Shown: positions 10,767 through 26,661 of the stretch, in pieces
Numbering within the stretch: the stretch's first letter is position 1
Layout of the letters: each line of letters begins with the position of its first letter
The notes under the pieces: model-generated
Database searches by the model: none
Told to the model about the DNA's origin: nothing
Seen by the model: the letters and a program-made list of their open reading frames with translations, nothing else
Translations under genes and position numbers: made by a program
NCBI GenBank assembly: GCA_947461015.1
Contig: CANHIR010000001.1
Span: forward strand, 1 to 31,273
Direction: 5' to 3'
Length of the DNA: 31,273 nucleotides
Source: Bacteroidota bacterium
Lineage (GTDB): Bacteria; Bacteroidota; Bacteroidia; Chitinophagales; Chitinophagaceae

Positions 10767-11684
10767 CTATTTCTTATCTAAACCTCTTGAAAATTGCGTG
10801 ATTTCGGAAATCTTGCCATTTAAGTCAAAATAAAAATTTTCAAGTAATTCTTTTTCCCAAACTGTTCCGTTTTTTAACACACGTTTTTCAGTTGCATTTA
10901 CCAAAACACCAGAAGCAGGGTCAGTATCAGTTAATTTTATTGGAATCATGCTTAATGGCCTCCAATCCAATGAAGTATATTCTCCAAAAACTGCTGGCAA
11001 CATCGCCTTCGTTAAATACATGATATTGCCATCAAAATCATGAATTTTAACTGAATCGGCCATTAATGAAGCACAAGTAGCAACATCCATTTTATTATAA
11101 GCACTCATGAATTTTTCCATAGCTGCAATTTCACCTCTATTTGAAAATTGAAATGTTGTACCATCTAACTTTTTATTACCTGGCGCAAAAAATTTGCCCC
11201 CAGTTGTTTGTCCAAATTCATTGGTAGTTGGAATTTGAGTATACTGTATAAAGGAAGCAATTTTACCTTTAGGAGTAACTTCAAATAATTCAATCACAGA
11301 TAATTTCTGAGTAGATCCATTTTTATAAATCCTATCCTCGTCTGCTAGAACAAATACTGTTTCATTTTCACGTCCTTGTACTTTTACTGGAAAGGCAGCC
11401 TGTGGCACTTCGTTTAATGATTTCATTGTATTATGCCAATCTCTGATCATTGATTGAAGACTTCCAGGATTTGCATCATCCACATATTGTGCAACATCCG
11501 AACCGTCATTTAAATTATATGCCTTAATGTTGTTAAGCACAATATCAACCGACTTGTCCGAACCTAGTTGAAATTTCTTACCTGCATTCTTGCTGCTAAC
11601 CAAAATTTTTCCTGCAGCTGGGGCTTGTGCCATTAAGTTTGAAGCTGTCGCGATAATAGCGATCAATAATACTAGTTTTTTCAT
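10767..11684 (-). CDS. Exported protein with two NTF2/SnoaL-like domains, function unknown
   Basis: 305 residues with a signal peptide (MKKLVLLIAIIATASNLMAQ). The mature part looks like two alpha+beta NTF2-like (SnoaL) repeats: about 48-155 and about 180-303. Each runs from a helix (DDANPGSLQSMIRDWHNTM; EKFMSAYNKMDVATCASLM) into strands ending with an aromatic-rich sheet (IELFEVTPKGKIASFIQYTQI; ENFYFDLNGKISEITQFSRG). NTF2-like folds serve as ligand-binding cups or enzymes; no catalytic residues are evident. Its upstream region carries palindrome A (11749-11773) and a TATTTTCA box, shared with three other small exported-protein genes in this window. The domain call rests on pattern reading and is moderately sure. 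Confidence 0.7.
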   Translation of the reverse strand: MKKLVLLIAIIATASNLMAQAPAAGKILVSSKNAGKKFQLGSDKSVDIVLNNIKAYNLNDGSDVAQYVDDANPGSLQSMIRDWHNTMKSLNEVPQAAFPVKVQGRENETVFVLADEDRIYKNGSTQKLSVIELFEVTPKGKIASFIQYTQIPTTNEFGQTTGGKFFAPGNKKLDGTTFQFSNRGEIAAMEKFMSAYNKMDVATCASLMADSVKIHDFDGNIMYLTKAMLPAVFGEYTSLDWRPLSMIPIKLTDTDPASGVLVNATEKRVLKNGTVWEKELLENFYFDLNGKISEITQFSRGLDKK

Positions 11685-11748
11685 TTTATTAATTTTGATT
11701 GAAAATATTTACAATTGGCAATCCTTGTTAGTTAAATGCATTAAATTA

Positions 11749-11773
11749 TGTTCCTTTATCGTTTATTGGAACA
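11749..11773 (-). promoter_or_regulatory. Inverted-repeat operator A (TGTTCC-N13-GGAACA)
   Basis: Perfect 6-base arms TGTTCC (11749-11754) and GGAACA (11768-11773) with a 13-base spacer. Read toward the NTF2-like gene it extends to TGTTCCA-N12-GGAACAT. A -7-like box TATTTTCA (11707-11700) begins 41 bases after the proximal arm, and the ATG (11684) follows. Same motif and spacing as at 12301, 15067 and 16243. Probable activator site, since no -33 element is consistently present. Confidence 0.75.
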
Positions 11774-11789
11774 TTTTTAAATTTAAAAC

Positions 11790-12221
11790 CTATTGATGAA
11801 CCCTTTCCCATATTAAGGAGAAGCTTTTGTCTTCCCTTGGACTAAGGGTAAGCGTTTTTCTGTCTTCGCTCAAGGAATAATCCCTAATCCAAACGGGTGG
11901 AATAGAGTCGTTGATAAAAGGCAATAAAGTATAGTAGTCTCTATAATGAGCAACATATTGCTCTTTGGTGTTTAATTCATATTTCCCACTATAACCTGTT
12001 ACTACACTATCTTTTTTACTCAAAATCACACACATTTGTCCGTCAGCACTATACATAATTACTCCTTTGTCAAATATATGCTGCCCCTTGGTAGTTAAAT
12101 GCCAGGTACCCACAAGTTCATTGGCGGGTTGGTTGGTTGGTTTGATTTCCTTGTTTTTGCAATGGGTTATCAAGCTGCTGGCAAGGAGTAGGAAAAATAA
12201 TGTATGGAATGTCTTTTTCAT
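11790..12221 (-). CDS. Lipocalin-like lipoprotein
   Basis: 143 residues from the ATG at 12221. A longer frame could begin at 12254, but the likely promoter box at 12252-12259 would exclude it, and the signal peptide only makes sense from 12221. The lipobox region SLITHC places the lipidated cysteine at C21, so it is a membrane-anchored envelope protein. The mature part opens with LVGTWHL (about 37-42), then VIMYSADGQMCVIL, the pattern of the Lipocalin_5 type beta-barrel family, and ends in a strand SFSLIWERV. Ligand unknown. Regulated by palindrome B (12301-12325), shared with three other small exported genes. Domain assignment moderately sure. Confidence 0.78.
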   Translation of the reverse strand: MKKTFHTLFFLLLASSLITHCKNKEIKPTNQPANELVGTWHLTTKGQHIFDKGVIMYSADGQMCVILSKKDSVVTGYSGKYELNTKEQYVAHYRDYYTLLPFINDSIPPVWIRDYSLSEDRKTLTLSPREDKSFSLIWERVHQ

Positions 12222-12251
12222 TTTGTGTGCTAGGCCTTTAGTTCTAGTTAG

Positions 12252-12259
12252 CAAACATA
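12252..12259 (-). promoter_or_regulatory. -7 promoter element (TATGTTTG) for the lipocalin-like gene
   Basis: Exact TAnnTTTG match on the minus strand, 31 bases before the ATG at 12221 and separated by 41 bases from palindrome B. It is the best -7 box of the four palindrome-controlled promoters and anchors the spacing rule for the others. Confidence 0.65.
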
Positions 12260-12300
12260 AATAGTTGCTTTTTTAATTGATAGGCAGAGGAAATTGAATA

Positions 12301-12325
12301 TGTTCCATTTTTTCATTTTGGAACA
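12301..12325 (-). promoter_or_regulatory. Inverted-repeat operator B (TGTTCC-N13-GGAACA)
   Basis: Arms TGTTCC (12301-12306) and GGAACA (12320-12325), 13-base spacer. Read toward the lipocalin-like gene, the -7 box TATGTTTG begins after 41 bases. It also lies in the divergent gap before the PhyH gene at 12493, but no box is found at the same spacing on that side, so control of PhyH is doubtful. Confidence 0.75.
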
Positions 12326-12492
12326 TTTATGGTAAAGGTTATGCCCAATAGGCTTGGGTTTAATTTTTAATCATGTAAATAGATTGGGGTAAGGAAGTTC
12401 AACAATGTGTAGGTATAATGGGAGACAATTTGATTTGGGAAAAAGAAAAGAGCCAATAATTGTTTATATTTATTCTACTTAATTAAATAATT

Positions 12493-13332
12493 ATGACTAC
12501 CAATCATTTCACACCTAATCAAGTTGAACAGTATCATAAGGAAGGTTATATCATTATAAAGAATTTTTGTAGTAAAGAAGAAATAGAAAAAATGTATGGC
12601 ATTGCAATTCATGACGATGCAATGTCAAAAAACGCCTTGGATTTAAACGACCAAACTGGTAAAAAAACGAAACTATCACTTTGGTTCACTCCGGGCAATG
12701 ATATTTTTGGATATTTGACAAGAAGTGAGCGAATGGTGAATAGAGTAGCTCAGTTATTGGATAGTGTATCCCCAGTGTGTCACTTTCATTCAAAACTAAT
12801 GCAAAAAGAACCCAAGGTGGGTGGCGCTTGGGAATGGCATCAGGATTATGGCTATTGGTATAAAAATCAGTTCATGTTTCCAGATCAATTGTTAAGTGTT
12901 ATGGTTGCATTAACGCCTGCCAATAAGCAAAACGGGTGTATTCAAGTAATTAAGGGTTCACATAAATTAGGAAGGGTAAATCATGGATTTGCCGGAGAGC
13001 AAGTTGGAGCAGACATGACCATGGTAGAAAATGCATTAAAAACAATGGAACTCGTATATGTTGAAATTGAGGCTGGAGATGCATTGTTCTTTCATAGTAA
13101 TATTTTACATCGTTCAGCAGCCAATGAATCTGATAAAGCAAGATGGTCTATTATATCCTGTTATAGCGCTCAAAGTAACTTAGCTTATAACGAAACTTCT
13201 ACTGCATGGCAACAACCTATTCAGGTAGTTCCAGATAAAGCTATTATGGAATGGGAGTTGGAAAGCTTAGGCAATGCCGATTTCTTAAAAAAAGAAAATG
13301 ACCCTGCATTAAAAAAAACAGGCTGGGAATAA
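12493..13332 (+). CDS. PhyH-family Fe(II)/2-oxoglutarate dioxygenase
   Basis: 279 residues, cytoplasmic, phytanoyl-CoA dioxygenase family. Iron ligands: H116 and D118 in WEWHQDYGYWY and H206 in FHSNILHRSAAN; an arginine (R217, in KARWSII) is placed to hold 2-oxoglutarate. The double-stranded beta-helix core covers about 95-235. The family hydroxylates varied small molecules, so the substrate cannot be named. It stands alone between a divergent lipoprotein gene and a convergent methyltransferase gene (6-base gap between stops). A second, clearly different PhyH protein is encoded at 19269. Confidence 0.85.
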   Translation: MTTNHFTPNQVEQYHKEGYIIIKNFCSKEEIEKMYGIAIHDDAMSKNALDLNDQTGKKTKLSLWFTPGNDIFGYLTRSERMVNRVAQLLDSVSPVCHFHSKLMQKEPKVGGAWEWHQDYGYWYKNQFMFPDQLLSVMVALTPANKQNGCIQVIKGSHKLGRVNHGFAGEQVGADMTMVENALKTMELVYVEIEAGDALFFHSNILHRSAANESDKARWSIISCYSAQSNLAYNETSTAWQQPIQVVPDKAIMEWELESLGNADFLKKENDPALKKTGWE

Positions 13333-13338
13333 TGAGTA

Positions 13339-13899
13339 TTAATGACTGTGTTGTGTAAAGTCTTTACATACATATACGAATGCAGGTGGCACATTTAATA
13401 AAGTAAATTTAAGATTCACTTTTTTGAAAAAATGCTTTAGTAATTTCCTGTCTTTAAGAGAATACTGAAATTGAATAAATAAGTTGCCAGGCTTTAGTGC
13501 GGTATTCACATGCGAAAGGATAGATTCTTTAAATGTTCTATTAAAATTCGCCAATGGCAAGCAAGAGATCACATAATCCACTTCATGCTTGTTTACATAT
13601 TTCATGATATCTTCCACACTGTCGTTTATTAAAACCAATCTTGGGTCGTTAATGGTTTTTAATTTTTCCATAAAAACAGGGTTAATTTCAAAGGAGTAAA
13701 GAATACTATCTGGCCCCATTTTTTTTAAAATCATTCTGGTCACACTTCCGTTGCCTGCACCAAATTCAACAATAACTTTTTTACCAGAAAAATCAACTGG
13801 GTCTGTTAATTTTTTTGCCAAGAATTTGCTACTACTGCATACAGCGCCAACCTGTGAAATATTCTTAGAAGCTTCTTTTATAAATGTAAATATGGACAT
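13339..13899 (-). CDS. SAM-dependent methyltransferase, phospholipid N-methyltransferase-like
   Basis: 186 residues. The SAM-binding motif I is VIVEFGAGNGSVT (42-54), followed by an acidic loop (FEINPVF) and a motif resembling the rRNA-dimethylase/PmtA group (VISCLPLANF in the place of NLPY/LPLS). Bacteroidota proteins of this size are usually annotated as phospholipid methyltransferase or rRNA adenine dimethylase-like. PmtA-type activity would convert phosphatidylethanolamine toward phosphatidylcholine at the membrane face. The ATG follows the stop of the TVP38-like gene after a single base, so they are one transcript; a membrane-lipid role agrees with that partner. Exact substrate uncertain. 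Confidence 0.75.
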   Translation of the reverse strand: MSIFTFIKEASKNISQVGAVCSSSKFLAKKLTDPVDFSGKKVIVEFGAGNGSVTRMILKKMGPDSILYSFEINPVFMEKLKTINDPRLVLINDSVEDIMKYVNKHEVDYVISCLPLANFNRTFKESILSHVNTALKPGNLFIQFQYSLKDRKLLKHFFKKVNLKFTLLNVPPAFVYVCKDFTQHSH

Positions 13900-13900
13900 G

Positions 13901-14476
13901 TTATTTTAATAAGTTTATTAAACTAGATCCTGAAAAAACATAAATGCTACAAATAATGAGTTCTCCCAAAAATACCGCCAAAATAAATCTAAAAAAATTC
14001 ATTTTACTGGCTCCGGCAGCGTAACAGACAGCATCGGTTGGTACCAAAGGTATAAAAGACCATAAAAACACAAGTAATAGTCCATTTTTGGACTCCATTT
14101 TTTGCTTTAGTTTTTCATGAGGATATATTTTTTCAATAGCGTTTCCTAGATTTAAAAGGTTTGAAAAATAGTAAATTAAGGTTGCAGAACCTATGATGCC
14201 TAATAAGGAAATGCTTAAAACAAGCCATTCTTGATTTGGAAAAATTATACCTCCAGCAATAACAAATGGCGTACTTGGAATTAAGGTAAATCCTCTTACA
14301 ATGGATATGATTAAATATGCGCCAATCATAAAAGAGTTATAACTTTTTAAAAAAGTAGCAATCTGTCCAGCATTAAATTGATCCATGTGGGTAAAGTAGT
14401 AAAAAAGACAAGCAATCATTAAGCATAGCCAAACTGCAAGCATGGCCCTCCTAAAATTGTTTGTTTTTGATAGCAT
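13901..14476 (-). CDS. TVP38/TMEM64 (DedA-superfamily) membrane protein
   Basis: 191 residues with a VTT/SNARE-associated domain (PF09335 style). The first re-entrant region reads TLIPSTPFVIAGGIIF and the second SFIPLVPTDAVCYAAGASKM, the two proline-rich loops typical of the family; about five hydrophobic segments surround them. Members include proteins implicated in lipid scrambling and membrane homeostasis. The gene lies 72 bases after the Sm_multidrug_ex gene and one base before the methyltransferase gene, all on the minus strand, suggesting a small membrane-maintenance operon. Transport substrate not known. Confidence 0.83.
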   Translation of the reverse strand: MLSKTNNFRRAMLAVWLCLMIACLFYYFTHMDQFNAGQIATFLKSYNSFMIGAYLIISIVRGFTLIPSTPFVIAGGIIFPNQEWLVLSISLLGIIGSATLIYYFSNLLNLGNAIEKIYPHEKLKQKMESKNGLLLVFLWSFIPLVPTDAVCYAAGASKMNFFRFILAVFLGELIICSIYVFSGSSLINLLK

Positions 14477-14548
14477 AGTTCAATTATGAGCGATGAAAAT
14501 ATAAAAATTATTTAATATAACCATTTATTAAATAACCATAAAGCAACA

Positions 14549-14977
14549 TTAAAATAACTGCAAGCCGAAATGACCAATGGTTGTAAATACGGTGCAACGA
14601 ATAAGCACGCCTAGGCAGCACCAAAAAACCATTTTATTGGTGGGCACATTAAACCCAACCCCAACGCCAATACTAATAGGTGCACCAACTGTAATGGTGC
14701 CAACTAGTCCTAATCCAATGACACCGTATTTTTCCCAAATTTTCAAGATAAATCCAGGTTCTTTCTTTGTATGCTCGGCAGAAGGTTTGCGGAATTTGCT
14801 TAACCAATTTTTAATTTTGTCACCAAGGTAAGCTACAACAAATACGCCCAATAGACCTCCAATTGCACTTGCGCCAAAAATCACAAATGGGTTTAATTTA
14901 AAGGCAAATCCGGCAGGTATGGCTGCATAAATTTCGAATGTTGCAAGCGCAGCTACGGTGAGTATTTTGTATATCAT
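14549..14977 (-). CDS. Small multi-drug export (Sm_multidrug_ex) family membrane protein
   Basis: 142 residues with about four membrane helices. The segments FEIYAAIPAGFAFKLNPF and VGTITVGAPISIGVGVGF are characteristic of PF06695. A basic, charged loop (about 55-75) separates the two halves. The family name comes from early reports of small drug exporters; the true function of most members is unknown. It is the first gene of the minus-strand membrane group that continues with TVP38 and the methyltransferase. Palindrome C at 15067 lies 90 bases upstream but points toward the plus-strand lipoprotein gene. Confidence 0.8.
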   Translation of the reverse strand: MIYKILTVAALATFEIYAAIPAGFAFKLNPFVIFGASAIGGLLGVFVVAYLGDKIKNWLSKFRKPSAEHTKKEPGFILKIWEKYGVIGLGLVGTITVGAPISIGVGVGFNVPTNKMVFWCCLGVLIRCTVFTTIGHFGLQLF

Positions 14978-15066
14978 ATTTGGAAATTGTATTATGGTTA
15001 CTAAGATAACAAATTACAGGTAGCCAACATTATTTAACTCTTTTTGTCATCCATTTAATATGATTT

Positions 15067-15091
15067 TGTTCCAGAATTGGGTTTCGGAACA
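15067..15091 (+). promoter_or_regulatory. Inverted-repeat operator C (TGTTCC-N13-GGAACA)
   Basis: Arms TGTTCC (15067-15072) and GGAACA (15086-15091), 13-base spacer. A -7-like box TATTTTAG (15134-15141) starts after 42 bases, then the lipoprotein ATG at 15166. The only plus-strand copy of the four, yet arranged identically relative to its gene. Confidence 0.75.
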
Positions 15092-15165
15092 TTTTACGCC
15101 ACCTTTCAGGGTAATAAAATAGCAAACTGAACCTATTTTAGATGCTTAAACAAAATAAATAAACA

Positions 15166-15702
15166 ATGAAAAAAGCATTATTTAGTGCAATGATCGCCAC
15201 TGCCTTGTTTGCATGTGGAAATGCTGGAGACAAAACTTCAACTTCAACAGCAAGCGCTGCTTCACCTACTAGTTATCCAGCAAATGCCGTAGGGTATACT
15301 TTAGATAACAGTGAAAATATAAATACAGTAAAAAAAGCTATTAATGCAGGGATAAGTTCAGACTCTACAGTTTTCATGGAAATTTATGCAGATACTGCAG
15401 CTATTTATGATAATATGCATAAGCAAACTATTTTTGAAAACATGAAAATGGCTGCATTTTTTAAGTCAAAAGGCGTTACAATGAGCCTTGACAAAATAAA
15501 TGCGATTTGGGAGACAGTTGGCAATAAGCCAGATGATATAGGCATTACTAATTATGTAAATGTATACTTTGATGCATCACTTACAAGTGCAACTAAAAAA
15601 GTAACCACTAGATTTAATGCAGTATTTGCATTTAAAAATGGCAAAATTGTTAGAGAGTGGGATACCTATGATTCAGCACCACTAATGGAAGTTTTAAAAT
15701 AA
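15166..15702 (+). CDS. NTF2-like lipoprotein, function unknown
   Basis: 178 residues. Lipobox TALFAC puts the lipidated cysteine at C17, followed by a Ser/Thr/Ala-rich linker (about 22-40). The rest (about 48-175) reads as one NTF2/SnoaL-like domain: helix NTVKKAINAGISSDSTVFME, then strands ending RFNAVFAFKNGKIVREWDTYD, the usual last strands of SnoaL-like proteins. No catalytic signature. It is controlled by palindrome C and followed by a strong terminator, so it is monocistronic. It shares fold type and regulation with the double NTF2-like protein at 10767. Domain call moderately sure. Confidence 0.75.
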   Translation: MKKALFSAMIATALFACGNAGDKTSTSTASAASPTSYPANAVGYTLDNSENINTVKKAINAGISSDSTVFMEIYADTAAIYDNMHKQTIFENMKMAAFFKSKGVTMSLDKINAIWETVGNKPDDIGITNYVNVYFDASLTSATKKVTTRFNAVFAFKNGKIVREWDTYDSAPLMEVLK

Positions 15703-15728
15703 TTTATATCTAAGTTTGGTTTAATTAT

Positions 15729-15758
15729 AAAAAGGCCCCTAAGATTAGGGGCCTTTTT
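15729..15758 (+). terminator. Bidirectional intrinsic terminator
   Basis: Perfect 12-base stem AAAAAGGCCCCT (15729-15740) with AGGGGCCTTTTT (15747-15758) around a 6-base loop, with T tracts on both strands. It separates the convergent NTF2-like lipoprotein gene and the 127-residue exported-protein gene. Confidence 0.9.
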
Positions 15759-15783
15759 ATGATCGAATAGATGGGTATAAAAA

Positions 15784-16167
15784 TTAATCTTCGTTATAGA
15801 ACCTTCTGTACAATTGACCAGTAATAAAGACTGCATTATTGTCTTTATTTTTAGTACTCCATGCCTTAAATTTTGGATGTTCATGAATTACTTTATAAAC
15901 TTCCTCGGAGGTCCAATGTCCAATAGTACAGTTTTTATAAGTAGATGTAGTATCAGAAGGACTAATTTTCATGTAGCTATAATAGTTATTTGGGTAGCCA
16001 ATTTCGGTCATAATTGCATTTATTTCCTTTAAACTCGCAATGTAAGTTTTTTCCATGGCAGCATTTTTTACGTCGTAAAAATGAACGGTCGTTAATGATT
16101 TTTGTGCCGAAACGGATAAGCTAAATGCCAAAACGGCAAACATAGATAAAATTGATTTTCTTTTCAT
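15784..16167 (-). CDS. Small exported protein of unknown function (possible alpha-beta barrel)
   Basis: 127 residues with a signal peptide (about 1-22, ends SVSAQ). The mature part starts LTTVHFYDVKNAAMEKTYIASLKEI..., with an N-terminal strand, a long helix and a later VYKVIHEHPKF segment. This is the rhythm of small dimeric alpha-beta barrel proteins, but I cannot place it in a named family. It is expressed from a promoter with palindrome D (16243-16267) and a TATTTTGC box, like three other small exported-protein genes nearby. Convergent with the NTF2-like lipoprotein across a shared terminator. Confidence 0.7.
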   Translation of the reverse strand: MKRKSILSMFAVLAFSLSVSAQKSLTTVHFYDVKNAAMEKTYIASLKEINAIMTEIGYPNNYYSYMKISPSDTTSTYKNCTIGHWTSEEVYKVIHEHPKFKAWSTKNKDNNAVFITGQLYRRFYNED

Positions 16168-16242
16168 AGCGGTATTTTTGATTTGGTAATGAGCAAAATA
16201 AATGAAAGAAGCTCATATTTTGCCTAATTGAGATAATATTTA

Positions 16243-16267
16243 TGTTCCTAATGTTGATATTGGAACA
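16243..16267 (-). promoter_or_regulatory. Inverted-repeat operator D (TGTTCC-N13-GGAACA)
   Basis: Arms TGTTCC (16243-16248) and GGAACA (16262-16267), 13-base spacer. Read toward the 127-residue exported-protein gene, a -7-like box TATTTTGC begins after 42 bases (16200 downward), then the ATG at 16167. The distal edge is 5 bases from the stop of the polysaccharide deacetylase gene, on the same strand. Confidence 0.75.
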
Positions 16268-18281: not shown

Positions 18282-18297
18282 CTTAAATTAATTTAAG
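18282..18297. repeat. 16-base perfect palindrome at the end of the AraC gene
   Basis: CTTAAATTAATTTAAG reads the same on both strands and overlaps the AraC stop codon between two convergent genes. Without a loop and with only A-T core pairs it is a weak terminator candidate at best. Confidence 0.25.
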
Positions 18298-19141
18298 CCA
18301 TTGCCATTTTTCTATATTTACTAGGACGCATATGCTTCTTTTTAATAAATACACGATTAAAATAAGTAAGTGTCTCAAAGCCATTGGCATAAGCTATTTC
18401 GGCTATCTGCTTATCGGTTTCCATTAATTGATTGCAAACATTGGCAATGCGAATATCATTCACATAATCAGAAAATGTTTTACCCGTTGCGCGTTTAAAA
18501 AATTTACAAAACGCTGTTGGAGATAAATGTATTAAAGCCGCTGCTTTATGAATACTTAAAGGCTCTTGGGCATGTTTTTGAATATATTGACAAACCTTAT
18601 TTATTCTTTTTTCATTTTCACTTCCTTTAAGTGGTTGATAATATACAGAGGCTAAGGATTCCTGTTTTAAAGTAGATAATTCATTAAGAATTTGTAAAAG
18701 GCTAGTTATTTTTTCAATTCCATTTTTTGTAGGCAATATTTTTAACTGTTCTTTTACGATTGCAATATTTTTTCCTTTAATACTAATGCCGCAATTTGCA
18801 ACACTCAATAATTTATGAATAGATGATAATTCATCAAGTCCAATAAAGCGCTCAATAAATGCTGTTGAAAATTGAACAACAATGGCTTCGGACTTTCCTT
18901 TCAAATCACTGTCACTTACCCAAGTATGCGGTAAGCCGGGGCCAATAAGCACAAGGTCGCCACTTTCATAAAACGCATGGTGATCACCTATGATTCTTTT
19001 ACCTTTTCCTTTTACAATTAGGGTAAGTTCATACTCGGGGTGATAATGCCAGAAAAAATCAAATTTGGCCTTTTGTATTGTAAAAGCAACAAAGGAGGCT
19101 TGACCTTTAATTTTATCTATATTTTCTAACAATGGTTTCAT
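18293..19141 (-). CDS. AraC-family regulator with cupin sensor domain
   Basis: 282 residues. The N-terminal cupin (about 20-95) has WHYHPEYEL (H32, H34, E38) and a GDLVLIGPGLPHTW turn, a typical sugar-sensing fold. The C-terminal double helix-turn-helix (about 180-280) ends with the classical AraC signature IAEIAYANGFETLTYFNRVFIKKKHMRPSKYR. Divergent from, and 127 bases away from, a PhyH-GH13-GH13 operon, so it probably responds to a glucan-derived sugar and controls that operon; this is inference from context. A minus-strand promoter box TATATTTG (19171-19178) precedes the start. Confidence 0.9.
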   Translation of the reverse strand: MKPLLENIDKIKGQASFVAFTIQKAKFDFFWHYHPEYELTLIVKGKGKRIIGDHHAFYESGDLVLIGPGLPHTWVSDSDLKGKSEAIVVQFSTAFIERFIGLDELSSIHKLLSVANCGISIKGKNIAIVKEQLKILPTKNGIEKITSLLQILNELSTLKQESLASVYYQPLKGSENEKRINKVCQYIQKHAQEPLSIHKAAALIHLSPTAFCKFFKRATGKTFSDYVNDIRIANVCNQLMETDKQIAEIAYANGFETLTYFNRVFIKKKHMRPSKYRKMAMA

Positions 19142-23957: not shown

Positions 23958-24046
23958 AGGGCAAATTTAAATATTATATCATATTAAATACATTTTGCAA
24001 CATTTTTTAAAAGATATTGTTATGTAATAGGACTAAAAATAAGTTA

Positions 24047-25537
24047 ATGTCAAAAGAGGCTACAATTATATTTCCCAATCAATTATACAAAGATAATTGT
24101 GCCGTTCATTTAAAAAGACCTGTCTATTTAGTGGAAGAGTGGCATTATTTTAACCAATACCCATTTCACAAAGAAAAATTGGTGTTGCATAGGGCTAGCA
24201 TGAAATTTTATGAACACTATTTAAAAGAACAGGGATTTTTGGTTCACTATATTGAAGCTACCCAGTCACAAAATAAATGTGAATTGCTAATCCAACATTT
24301 TCATGACAATGGTTTTACAAAAATACATATAGTGGATCCAGTTGATGATTGGATTTTACAAAAAATTAAATCTAGTTGTGCATTCAATGGCATAGCGCTA
24401 ATTATTTATGACAATCCCAATTTTTTAAATACCATTCAACAGGTAGATACTTTCTTTACTAAAAGGAAAACCTATTTTCAAACGGATTTTTATACGGCAC
24501 AAAGAAAGTCAAGAAATATTTTAATGGAAAAGGATGGAAAGCCAATAGGAGGAAAATGGACCTATGATGCAGAAAATAGGGCTAAATTTCCTAAAAAAGA
24601 GCTACCCCCTAAATTACCCACAGCGCCCTACCATAAATTTTTAGAGGAAGCAAAAGCCTATATACAGGAACAGTATCCAAATAATTATGGAGTAGTAAAT
24701 GAAAATCATTTATTTGCCATCAATTTTAACGATAGTGAAAAGTGGCTTGAAATATTTTTGGAAGAACGCTTTGAAAAATTTGGAATTTATGAAGATGCGA
24801 TTGTGGCAAAAGAATATGTTTTGAATCACTCTGTTCTTTCACCTATGTTAAATATTGGTTTACTAACCCCGCAACAAATTATTGACCGTACTTTATCCTA
24901 TGCAAATAAAAAAAATATTCCATTAAATTCATTAGAAGGGTTTATTAGACAAATAGTTGGGTGGCGAGAATTTATTAGAATAGTATATGAGCGAGAAGGG
25001 TCAAAACAACGAACTACAAATTACTGGAAGTTTACGAGAAAAATACCAATAAGCTTTTGGAACGGAACTACTGGTATTGCCCCAATAGATATCACCATAA
25101 AAAAGGTGTTGGAAACAGGCTATTGCCATCATATTGAAAGGCTAATGGTACTTGGCAATTTTATGCTTTTGTGCGAGTTTGACCCCAATGAAGTGTATAA
25201 ATGGTTCATGGAAATGTTTATTGATGCATACGACTGGGTAATGGTACCAAACGTATATGGCATGACACAGTTTGCAGACGGCGGCTTAATGACCACAAAG
25301 CCATATATAAGTGGCAGTAATTATTTAATGAAAATGAGTGATTATGAAAAGGGAGCCTGGCAAGAAATTTGGGATGGTTTATTTTGGCGTTTTATGCATG
25401 AACATAGAACCTTTTTCTTAAGTAATCCAAGAATTGGAATGCTTGTTCATACTTTCGATAAAATGAATCCAGATAAACAAGCACTGCATTTGCAAAATGC
25501 GAATAAGTTTTTAAATGAATTAGATAAGCAAAATTAA
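24047..25537 (+). CDS. PhrB-like cryptochrome/photolyase lacking the iron-sulfur cysteines
   Basis: 496 residues from the ATG at 24047; the frame extends upstream only to a TTG at 24017. The N-terminal Rossmann domain (ATIIFPNQLYKDN..., about 5-130) is the deoxyribodipyrimidine photolyase-related type. The alpha-helical FAD domain holds GGKWTYDAENR (168-178), the H361-H362 pair in YCHHIERLMV and VPNVYGMTQFADGG. These match bacterial (6-4) photolyases of the FeS-BCP group such as Agrobacterium PhrB. However, the four [4Fe-4S] cysteines of PhrB have no counterpart: the first site reads GIAP (343-346), the CxxC reads YEKGA (433-437), and the loop holding the fourth is deleted. It is followed, 2 bases on, by a second photolyase-like gene. 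Repair versus signalling role undetermined. Confidence 0.85.
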   Translation: MSKEATIIFPNQLYKDNCAVHLKRPVYLVEEWHYFNQYPFHKEKLVLHRASMKFYEHYLKEQGFLVHYIEATQSQNKCELLIQHFHDNGFTKIHIVDPVDDWILQKIKSSCAFNGIALIIYDNPNFLNTIQQVDTFFTKRKTYFQTDFYTAQRKSRNILMEKDGKPIGGKWTYDAENRAKFPKKELPPKLPTAPYHKFLEEAKAYIQEQYPNNYGVVNENHLFAINFNDSEKWLEIFLEERFEKFGIYEDAIVAKEYVLNHSVLSPMLNIGLLTPQQIIDRTLSYANKKNIPLNSLEGFIRQIVGWREFIRIVYEREGSKQRTTNYWKFTRKIPISFWNGTTGIAPIDITIKKVLETGYCHHIERLMVLGNFMLLCEFDPNEVYKWFMEMFIDAYDWVMVPNVYGMTQFADGGLMTTKPYISGSNYLMKMSDYEKGAWQEIWDGLFWRFMHEHRTFFLSNPRIGMLVHTFDKMNPDKQALHLQNANKFLNELDKQN

Positions 25538-25539
25538 TC

Positions 25540-26661
25540 ATGCAAAAGTTTAAAAATATATTTCCTACCAATTATCAAGCAATAATTAATAAAATAAATG
25601 TAATTCATCCTGGGAGATATGCAAAAACAAGAAATTTTCTAAATGGCGATATTACTTATCTATCTCCTTACATTTCAAGAGGAGTAATTTCGACAAAGCA
25701 AATCATGAACATAATTTTAAAAAACGGGTTTACTTTTTTAGAATGCGAAAAATTAATTCAAGAACTGTGTTGGCGTGAATATTATCAGCGTGTATGGCAG
25801 GTTAAAAAAGAATTAATATGGGAAGATTTAAAACAAGCGCAACCAGATTTCATACATACTAAAATGCCAGTTTCATTATTGCATTGCACTACGGGTATTG
25901 AAGTAATTGATGAACAACTGAATCATTTATATGAAATAGGTTATGTACATAATCATATCAGAATGTATATTGCCTCTATGGCTTGTAATGTTGGGAAAGC
26001 GCACTGGAAAATACCCGCTAAATGGTTTTACTATCATCTATTAGACGGAGACATAGCAAGTAACAATTGCAGTTGGCAATGGGTAGCCGCATCTTTTTCT
26101 TCAAAAAAATATTACTGCAATCAAGAGAATATAAATAAGTACACCAACACCAATCAAAGGGATACTTTTTTAGATAAAACCTATGATGAAATTGCAAGCA
26201 TTCAAGTACCTGATGCTTTAACAGCTACCACCCTGTTGCAATTAAATACAAATTTACCCATCACAAAACTTCCAATACTAGATGTAACCAAGCCTACACT
26301 TATCTATAATTCCTATAATCTGGATCCAAACTGGCGTGCAAATGAAAATGTGAATAGGGTATTGTTATTGGAGCCGACTCATTTTGCTAACCATCCGGTA
26401 AGTGAAAAGGTATTAGATTTTGTATTGGCCCTTTCCAAAAATATTCCAGACATACAAGTTTTTACAGGAGAAATCACATCCATCTTGGCGCTATATAATG
26501 AAAGCAACATTTTAATAAACGACGCCATCATTTCAAAAGAACATCCAGCATTTGCATATTATCCGGGGATTAAAGACCAACGGGATTGGATGTTCCCAAA
26601 TGTTACGGGCTATTACTCTTCCTTTTTTAATTTTTGGAAAAAATGTATACAGTCTTTGTAA
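25540..26661 (+). CDS. Photolyase-family FAD protein with reversed domain order
   Basis: 373 residues. The photolyase FAD-binding domain is at the N-terminus (about 20-205): GRYAKTRNFLNGDITYLSPY, ELCWREYYQRVW, NHIRMYIASMACNVG and WFYYHLLDGDIASNNCSWQW are standard. The usual N-terminal alpha/beta antenna-binding domain is missing from the front. Instead residues about 250-370 look like a version of it: LIYNSYNLDPNWRANENVNRVLLLEP, then SEKVLDFVLALSKNIPDIQVFTGE. So the domains appear swapped relative to classical photolyases. Two bases separate it from the FeS-less PhrB-like gene; they are co-transcribed and perhaps act together. DNA repair, RNA binding or light sensing are all possible. The FAD domain is firm; the C-terminal assignment is moderate. 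Confidence 0.8.
   Translation: MQKFKNIFPTNYQAIINKINVIHPGRYAKTRNFLNGDITYLSPYISRGVISTKQIMNIILKNGFTFLECEKLIQELCWREYYQRVWQVKKELIWEDLKQAQPDFIHTKMPVSLLHCTTGIEVIDEQLNHLYEIGYVHNHIRMYIASMACNVGKAHWKIPAKWFYYHLLDGDIASNNCSWQWVAASFSSKKYYCNQENINKYTNTNQRDTFLDKTYDEIASIQVPDALTATTLLQLNTNLPITKLPILDVTKPTLIYNSYNLDPNWRANENVNRVLLLEPTHFANHPVSEKVLDFVLALSKNIPDIQVFTGEITSILALYNESNILINDAIISKEHPAFAYYPGIKDQRDWMFPNVTGYYSSFFNFWKKCIQSL

Follow-up and report, generated by a model that had tools for sequence, protein, structure and literature searches.

A putative envelope regulon of freshwater Bacteroidota and its candidate membrane-bound AraC-type regulator

RhaS and RhaR, members of the AraC family, act as dimers on inverted half-sites that lie ahead of the core promoter, and ToxR, CadC, and TcpP are membrane-anchored DNA-binding activators with a winged-helix domain and one transmembrane (TM) helix. 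Membrane-bound one-component regulators of AraC type are already known as a kind: the passages on Saccharophagus degradans 2-40 describe such proteins, take their neighbors as likely targets, and tabulate two entries with two TM regions that adjoin carbohydrate-degradation genes (PMC2386152). Here, we analyzed a 31,273-nucleotide stretch of a Chitinophagaceae genome (contig CANHIR010000001.1, positions 1 to 31,273; the window) in which perfect inverted repeats of the form TGTTCC-N13-GGAACA precede genes for small exported proteins. These repeats are very probably the operators of a single regulon, read by an integral-membrane one-component protein of AraC type.

Repeats in the window and its genome

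An earlier note on this DNA had proposed four promoters marked by the repeat, and all four copies are present with no mismatch in either arm. The repeats, the TATnTT boxes read toward the adjacent gene, and the genes themselves are as follows.

11749..11773, minus strand: putative operator TGTTCC-N13-GGAACA, 64 bp upstream of the 305-amino-acid gene
11700..11707, minus strand: -7-like box TATTTTCA, beginning 41 bases past the operator
10767..11684, minus strand: 305-amino-acid exported protein, double NTF2-like, with a weak SnoaL_2 match (E 0.0074, below cut-off)
12301..12325, minus strand: putative operator TGTTCC-N13-GGAACA, 79 bp upstream of the 143-amino-acid gene
12252..12259, minus strand: -7-like box TATGTTTG, beginning 41 bases past the operator
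11790..12221, minus strand: 143-amino-acid protein with a lipoprotein-like N-terminus, lipocalin-like (PF13924, E 1.5e-4, below cut-off)
15067..15091, plus strand: putative operator TGTTCC-N13-GGAACA, 74 bp upstream of the 178-amino-acid gene
15134..15141, plus strand: -7-like box TATTTTAG, beginning 42 bases past the operator
15166..15702, plus strand: 178-amino-acid protein with a lipoprotein-like N-terminus, SnoaL-like (PF07366, E 3.8e-5, below cut-off)
16243..16267, minus strand: putative operator TGTTCC-N13-GGAACA, 75 bp upstream of the 127-amino-acid gene
16193..16200, minus strand: -7-like box TATTTTGC, beginning 42 bases past the operator
15784..16167, minus strand: 127-amino-acid exported protein, family not recognized

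The boxes begin where the note had placed them, and a manual count gave box-to-ATG distances of 23, 38, 32, and 33 for TATTTTCA to TATTTTGC in order. When up to two mismatches were allowed, the window held 7 matches, 4 of them perfect, against 0.97 expected, and none of 100 shuffles reached 7; perfect-arm repeats at any other spacing from 3 to 39 were absent from the window. The operator at 15067..15091 also lies 89 bp upstream of a divergent 142-amino-acid gene, and on that side TA..TT was not seen at +40 to +42.

We scanned the whole genome to which the window belongs (G000; 1,701,433 bases in 180 contigs, 71% complete) and found six exact copies of the motif and none of its reversed control. 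Two copies lie outside the window (C39:8979-9003 and C47:5434-5458), so that the regulon has at least six genes here, compared with the four that the note had seen. All six are intergenic and stand 64 to 79 bp ahead of the ATG of a small exported protein (64, 79, 74, 75, 73, and 72 bp for proteins of 305, 143, 178, 127, 186, and 167 amino acids, respectively). The genome scan that the note had proposed thus supports a regulon, with perfect sites placed at promoters and not at random or within genes. We also considered the nine one-mismatch matches (eight N13 and one N14) as additional members and rejected them: eight fall inside open reading frames (ORFs), and the ninth lies between genes, more than 130 bp from any ORF start. 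In this genome, the boundary between true site and chance match is sharp.

A candidate regulator and its link to the sites

The site on contig C39 precedes a 186-amino-acid gene (SnoaL PF07366, E 8.9e-27) that is convergent, at a distance of 6 bases, with the gene that we propose as the regulator (C39:7151-8338, 395 amino acids). The 395-residue protein carries an AraC-type double helix-turn-helix (HTH) at its C-terminus (residues 316 to 392), following a hydrophobic N-terminal region. Matches to PF12833 (HTH_18; E 4e-13) and PF00165 (HTH_AraC; E 1.8e-9) are both above cut-off, and, with profile matches from the PDB in agreement, the C-terminal double HTH places the protein in the AraC/XylS family. 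The nine NCBIfam matches to equivalog AraC subfamilies are weak, all far below cut-off, and confined to residues 260 to 393. HTH domains were the only Pfam domains at E≤0.01, and neither a histidine kinase nor a receiver domain was found. In a structure model (mean pLDDT 72.5), residues 4 to 253 contain seven long helices, and hydropathy gave about seven segments both for this protein and for its counterpart in Aquirufa. The sole Foldseek match at E≤0.001 was an AraC-type DNA-binding domain; receptor-like matches to the helical part were not significant. By prediction, then, TM segments and a DNA-binding domain share one chain, as would be expected of a membrane-bound one-component regulator.

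Proteins of the same type recur next to the motif in other genomes. We defined orthologs as matches sharing 50% identity or more with the N-terminal 312 residues and found them in 27 of 101 congeneric genomes, with G002 counted on a 103-residue end fragment. The motif occurred in 26 of these 27 genomes (100 hits) versus 24 of the 74 others (28 hits, at most 2 per genome). Three or more sites were present in 20 of the 27 and in none of the 74 (Fisher, 1.3e-15; Mann-Whitney, 2e-14; both ignoring relatedness). Among the ortholog genomes, only G112 lacks an N13 site, and its regulator gene contains an in-frame TAG. There, the module seems to be decaying (L122, or G112:C40): besides the stop, the regulator's operator has two mismatches, and the neighboring SnoaL-like gene has a shortened ORF behind an intact N14 site of its own.

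Linkage was examined at 58 loci, mostly from metagenome bins, obtained from a named-genome search with a five-ortholog alignment; this set overlaps the genome set (e.g., L122 with G112 and L105 with G022), and the two counts are not independent. Locus titles include Chitinophagaceae, Sediminibacterium, Cytophagaceae, Aquirufa antheringensis, and Flavobacterium. A perfect site was present at 42 of the 58, and at 27 the regulator faces a small convergent ORF whose site has no more than one mismatch. In a comparison with paralogs (≤35% identity), 23 of 28 ortholog loci had a perfect site compared with 1 of 23 paralog loci. The one exception is C47 of the window's own genome (L027:3477-4664), where a paralog with 28% identity lies directly behind the site-bearing gene, near genes resembling, by eye, those for carotenoid synthesis and a MerR-type regulator. 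Outside these relatives the ortholog appears, as a rough sign, to be phylogenetically narrow: in a phylum sample of 394 other genomes, with up to four candidates scored in each, one genome had a match at E≤1e-30, and this was a relative with 32% identity.

A same-gene comparison used homologs of the 127- and 305-residue window proteins, excluding a broken copy in G077. Genomes without the regulator had a site in 0 of 15 assessable promoters, the best having 3 mismatches; these were 7 for the 127-residue protein (G006 cut, G001 with an uncertain start) and 8 rows for the 305-residue protein, whose regulator-less homologs are distant (31 to 41% identity) and therefore weak controls. Genomes with the regulator had a site in five of eight promoters, namely G000 and, with one mismatch, G044 for the 127-residue protein and three of four (G000 itself, G049, and G064) for the 305-residue protein.

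Promoter geometry and target genes across relatives

The 58 regulator-linked loci (746,166 bases) contain TGTTCC-N13-GGAACA 45 times and the N14 form 17 times (16 distinct), and no other spacing from N5 to N25; the reversed control gave 0 throughout. An N14 spacing is therefore allowed in addition to the N13 that the note had taken as fixed, and arms and spacing are retained among related genomes and at loci with the titles Cytophagaceae and Flavobacterium, as its reading of a regulon required. In 29 sites, whose arms are fixed by construction, A was favored two and three bases outward from the arms, and T at position 11, A at position 15, and G or C at the center were favored inside the repeat; the inner base pairs showed no excess of complementarity over expectation. 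Conservation of the center and flanks is weak overall. The note had also read each site as oriented toward its gene, as TGTTCCA-N12-GGAACAT. This stands for the four window sites and fails as a general feature: in a set of 43 one-directional N13 sites, the distal arm is followed by A in 24 and the proximal arm is preceded by the mirror T in 23, and T comes after the proximal arm in 26 versus 20 at the mirror position. On these near-symmetric counts we rejected the oriented motif as a general one. Separately, a tandem array in another genome (G098:C5; period, 318 bases) repeats TGTTCC-N16-GGAACA and inflates simple repeat counts.

The box geometry recurs well beyond the four window genes. Among 77 promoters of small ORFs with an ATG 60 to 95 bases past the site, TA..TT was searched at 38 to 46 bases past the site and found in 58, every time at 40 to 42; 500 shuffles scored over the same 38 to 46 bases gave a mean of 10.1 and a maximum of 19. 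T occupies +45 in 72 of the 77 and +46 in 72 of the 77, and, as the note had claimed, there is no consistent -33 element. If the box is taken as near -7, the site would be centered about 65 bases before the transcription start, a position suited to an activator. A site 40 to 42 bases upstream of the box together with the lack of a -33 element therefore fits activation, and we infer this sign from the promoter geometry.

The regulator's own promoter is arranged differently, with sites at distances other than +41. A clear box 34 to 37 bases before the ATG was recognized in 15 of 22 distinct regulator promoters, at +8, +19 to 21, +55, or +76 from the site, and no such box in the remaining 7. Autoregulation with the fixed +41 geometry was thus looked for in these 22 promoters and not found; the own-gene sites at other distances suggest that the regulator is probably autoregulated, with either sign. 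In three loci titled Flavobacterium, the sites lie 91 to 92 bases upstream of the regulator. Aquirufa antheringensis has an N14 site, and its strain 30S-ANTBAC has both regulator and site.

The fetched loci yielded 108 distinct sites, a biased sample in that all were picked by motif or regulator. One hundred lie 25 to 130 bases before an ORF start, eight have no assigned start, and one is inside an ORF of more than 100 amino acids. Of the 100 sites with an assigned start, 40 are flanked by divergently oriented gene starts, and at 12 of these a TA..TT box is present in both directions; some of the target genes are probably bystanders at such promoters. Targets form 12 sequence clusters of at least two members plus 17 singletons. 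Counted in distinct sites, the largest clusters comprise three SnoaL-like groups (26, 25, and 5), the regulator itself (23), a DUF4440 group and the double NTF2-like protein (10 each), a 263-amino-acid lipoprotein that matched no Pfam family (9), and lipocalin-like lipoproteins (4). Members of the largest clusters, the regulator excepted, scored as exported in a crude N-terminal test.

SnoaL-type Pfam matches of the window proteins are below cut-off or lacking, and that of the regulator's neighbor gene is above it. The 127-residue protein was modeled with low confidence (pLDDT 67.6); its model resembles dimeric ferredoxin-like and antibiotic-monooxygenase folds, with no structural match at E≤0.001 and with antibiotic monooxygenases and a polyketide cyclase among the best ones. 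From such folds, our guess is that the targets may handle small hydrophobic or aromatic molecules.

Several further arrangements were observed. Two large proteins of one cluster (L028:6530-9781, with regulator-propeller, Y_Y_Y, and SpoIIE domains, and a 1,058-amino-acid product at L111) both have an operator upstream. Six loci titled Cytophagaceae, Spirosoma, or Aquirufa (L118, L124, L127, L129, L130, and L134) have one N14 site between divergent genes, a SnoaL-like gene opposite one resembling the double NTF2-like window protein (10767-11684). In the window, positions 24017-26661 hold two adjoining genes that look by eye like photolyases or cryptochromes, followed by a small DCC-type gene on the opposite strand. 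The photolyase-like genes had suggested a light response, and no perfect site lies upstream of them.

Rival readings and relation to known systems

We are highly confident that the regulon is real. The note's proposal of an envelope regulon with an activator-placed operator has held up on the promoter placement of six of six genome sites, the retained arms and spacing, and the geometry of 58 of 77 promoters. An origin of the motif by chance or as a dispersed repeat is extremely improbable. Twelve fixed bases can arise by chance, as in the 28 hits of the 74 ortholog-less genomes; among 40 relatives, eight such genomes had inspected sites (G001, G003, G005, G009, G010, G011, G013, and G021, with one of the two sites in G021 uninspected), and in six the site was inside an ORF; that of G001, not one of the six, lies at a contig edge. 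Fixed spacing, promoter geometry, ortholog linkage, and promoter placement contradict chance, as does the empty reversed control in the window's own genome, and the weak conservation of center and flanks argues against a copied repeat.

The membrane AraC-type protein is most likely the regulator, judging by its gene's distribution and neighborhood. A real operator could instead be read by another regulator co-inherited with it, such as the soluble cupin-AraC protein or a response regulator; the cupin-AraC gene lies at 18293-19141, 2 kb from the last window site, and the co-occurrence profile is unable to separate co-inherited genes. We think this quite unlikely: linkage to the membrane AraC gene spans Chitinophagaceae, Cytophagaceae, and Flavobacterium loci and includes sites before that gene, the soluble cupin-AraC gene has no site of its own, and in 20 neighborhoods no other regulator recurred beside the sites (N-termini read only, no systematic domain search). 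Repression by the membrane protein, with the site as a repressor operator, is also unlikely. Some sites in the regulator's own promoter do end 8 or 19 to 21 bases before a -7-like box, overlapping or touching the -33 region; target sites, however, lie upstream of the core promoter and end 40 to 42 bases short of the box, and repression from there would need looping or another mechanism.

Several observations weigh against an operator read by the membrane protein. Twelve of the 58 ortholog loci lack a site in the sequence examined; one of these, L097, is a contig of G105, a genome with five N13 hits. G081 and G072 have the regulator and no site at the homolog of the 127-residue protein, and G105 has none directly before its homolog of the 305-residue protein. 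The 100 hits in ortholog genomes include chance matches: those at G004:C1 and G015:C14, at least, fall inside ORFs, with many others uninspected. G009 has a promoter-placed site, and its closest regulator relative found has 27% identity; the gene with the site extends to the edge of its contig, so that its neighbor may be missing. At the same threshold, hydropathy yields only five segments for the Flavobacterium protein. Direct repeats are frequent targets of AraC-type proteins, and how two double-HTH heads would be seated on a 25-base palindrome is not obvious.

On balance, we favor activation by the membrane AraC-type protein. A regulator dimer in the inner membrane would sense a small molecule or the state of the membrane, bind TGTTCC-N13/14-GGAACA directly at a center about 65 bases before the transcription start, and recruit RNA polymerase to promoters with a -7 box and without a -33 element. 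This recruitment would switch on small exported proteins and lipoproteins (SnoaL/NTF2-like, DUF4440, lipocalin-like, and others), and the regulator would probably control its own gene too. More speculatively, and with considerable doubt, the seven-helix receptor with its AraC-type head may sense small molecules in fresh water, perhaps aromatic or polyketide-like ones, and switch on exported proteins that handle small molecules, the module and its operators having been passed between orders of freshwater Bacteroidota.

A literature search that left subscription journals largely outside its reach returned no account of the motif, of this regulator, or of an operator for the seven-helix form. The present analysis provides a proposed regulator, operator, and target list for small exported, mostly unannotated proteins of freshwater bacteria, and direct tests become possible in the named strain A. 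antheringensis 30S-ANTBAC. Compared with RhaS and RhaR, the arms are shorter here, and the N-terminal part is predicted to be membrane embedded and not a cupin. Unlike ToxR, CadC, and TcpP, the candidate combines an AraC-type HTH with seven predicted helices. It shares with Bacteroides hybrid two-component systems, from the same phylum, an AraC-type (HTH_18) domain in a membrane protein but has neither their histidine kinase nor their receiver domain, as far as the relevant passages describe them (PMC11253607). The S. degradans regulators are likewise membrane-bound one-component proteins with an AraC-type HTH; the candidate differs from them in its seven predicted helices, defined operator, and small-protein targets, the corresponding passages giving no operator (PMC2386152). 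Here, a multihelix membrane AraC-type regulator can be paired with its likely DNA site.

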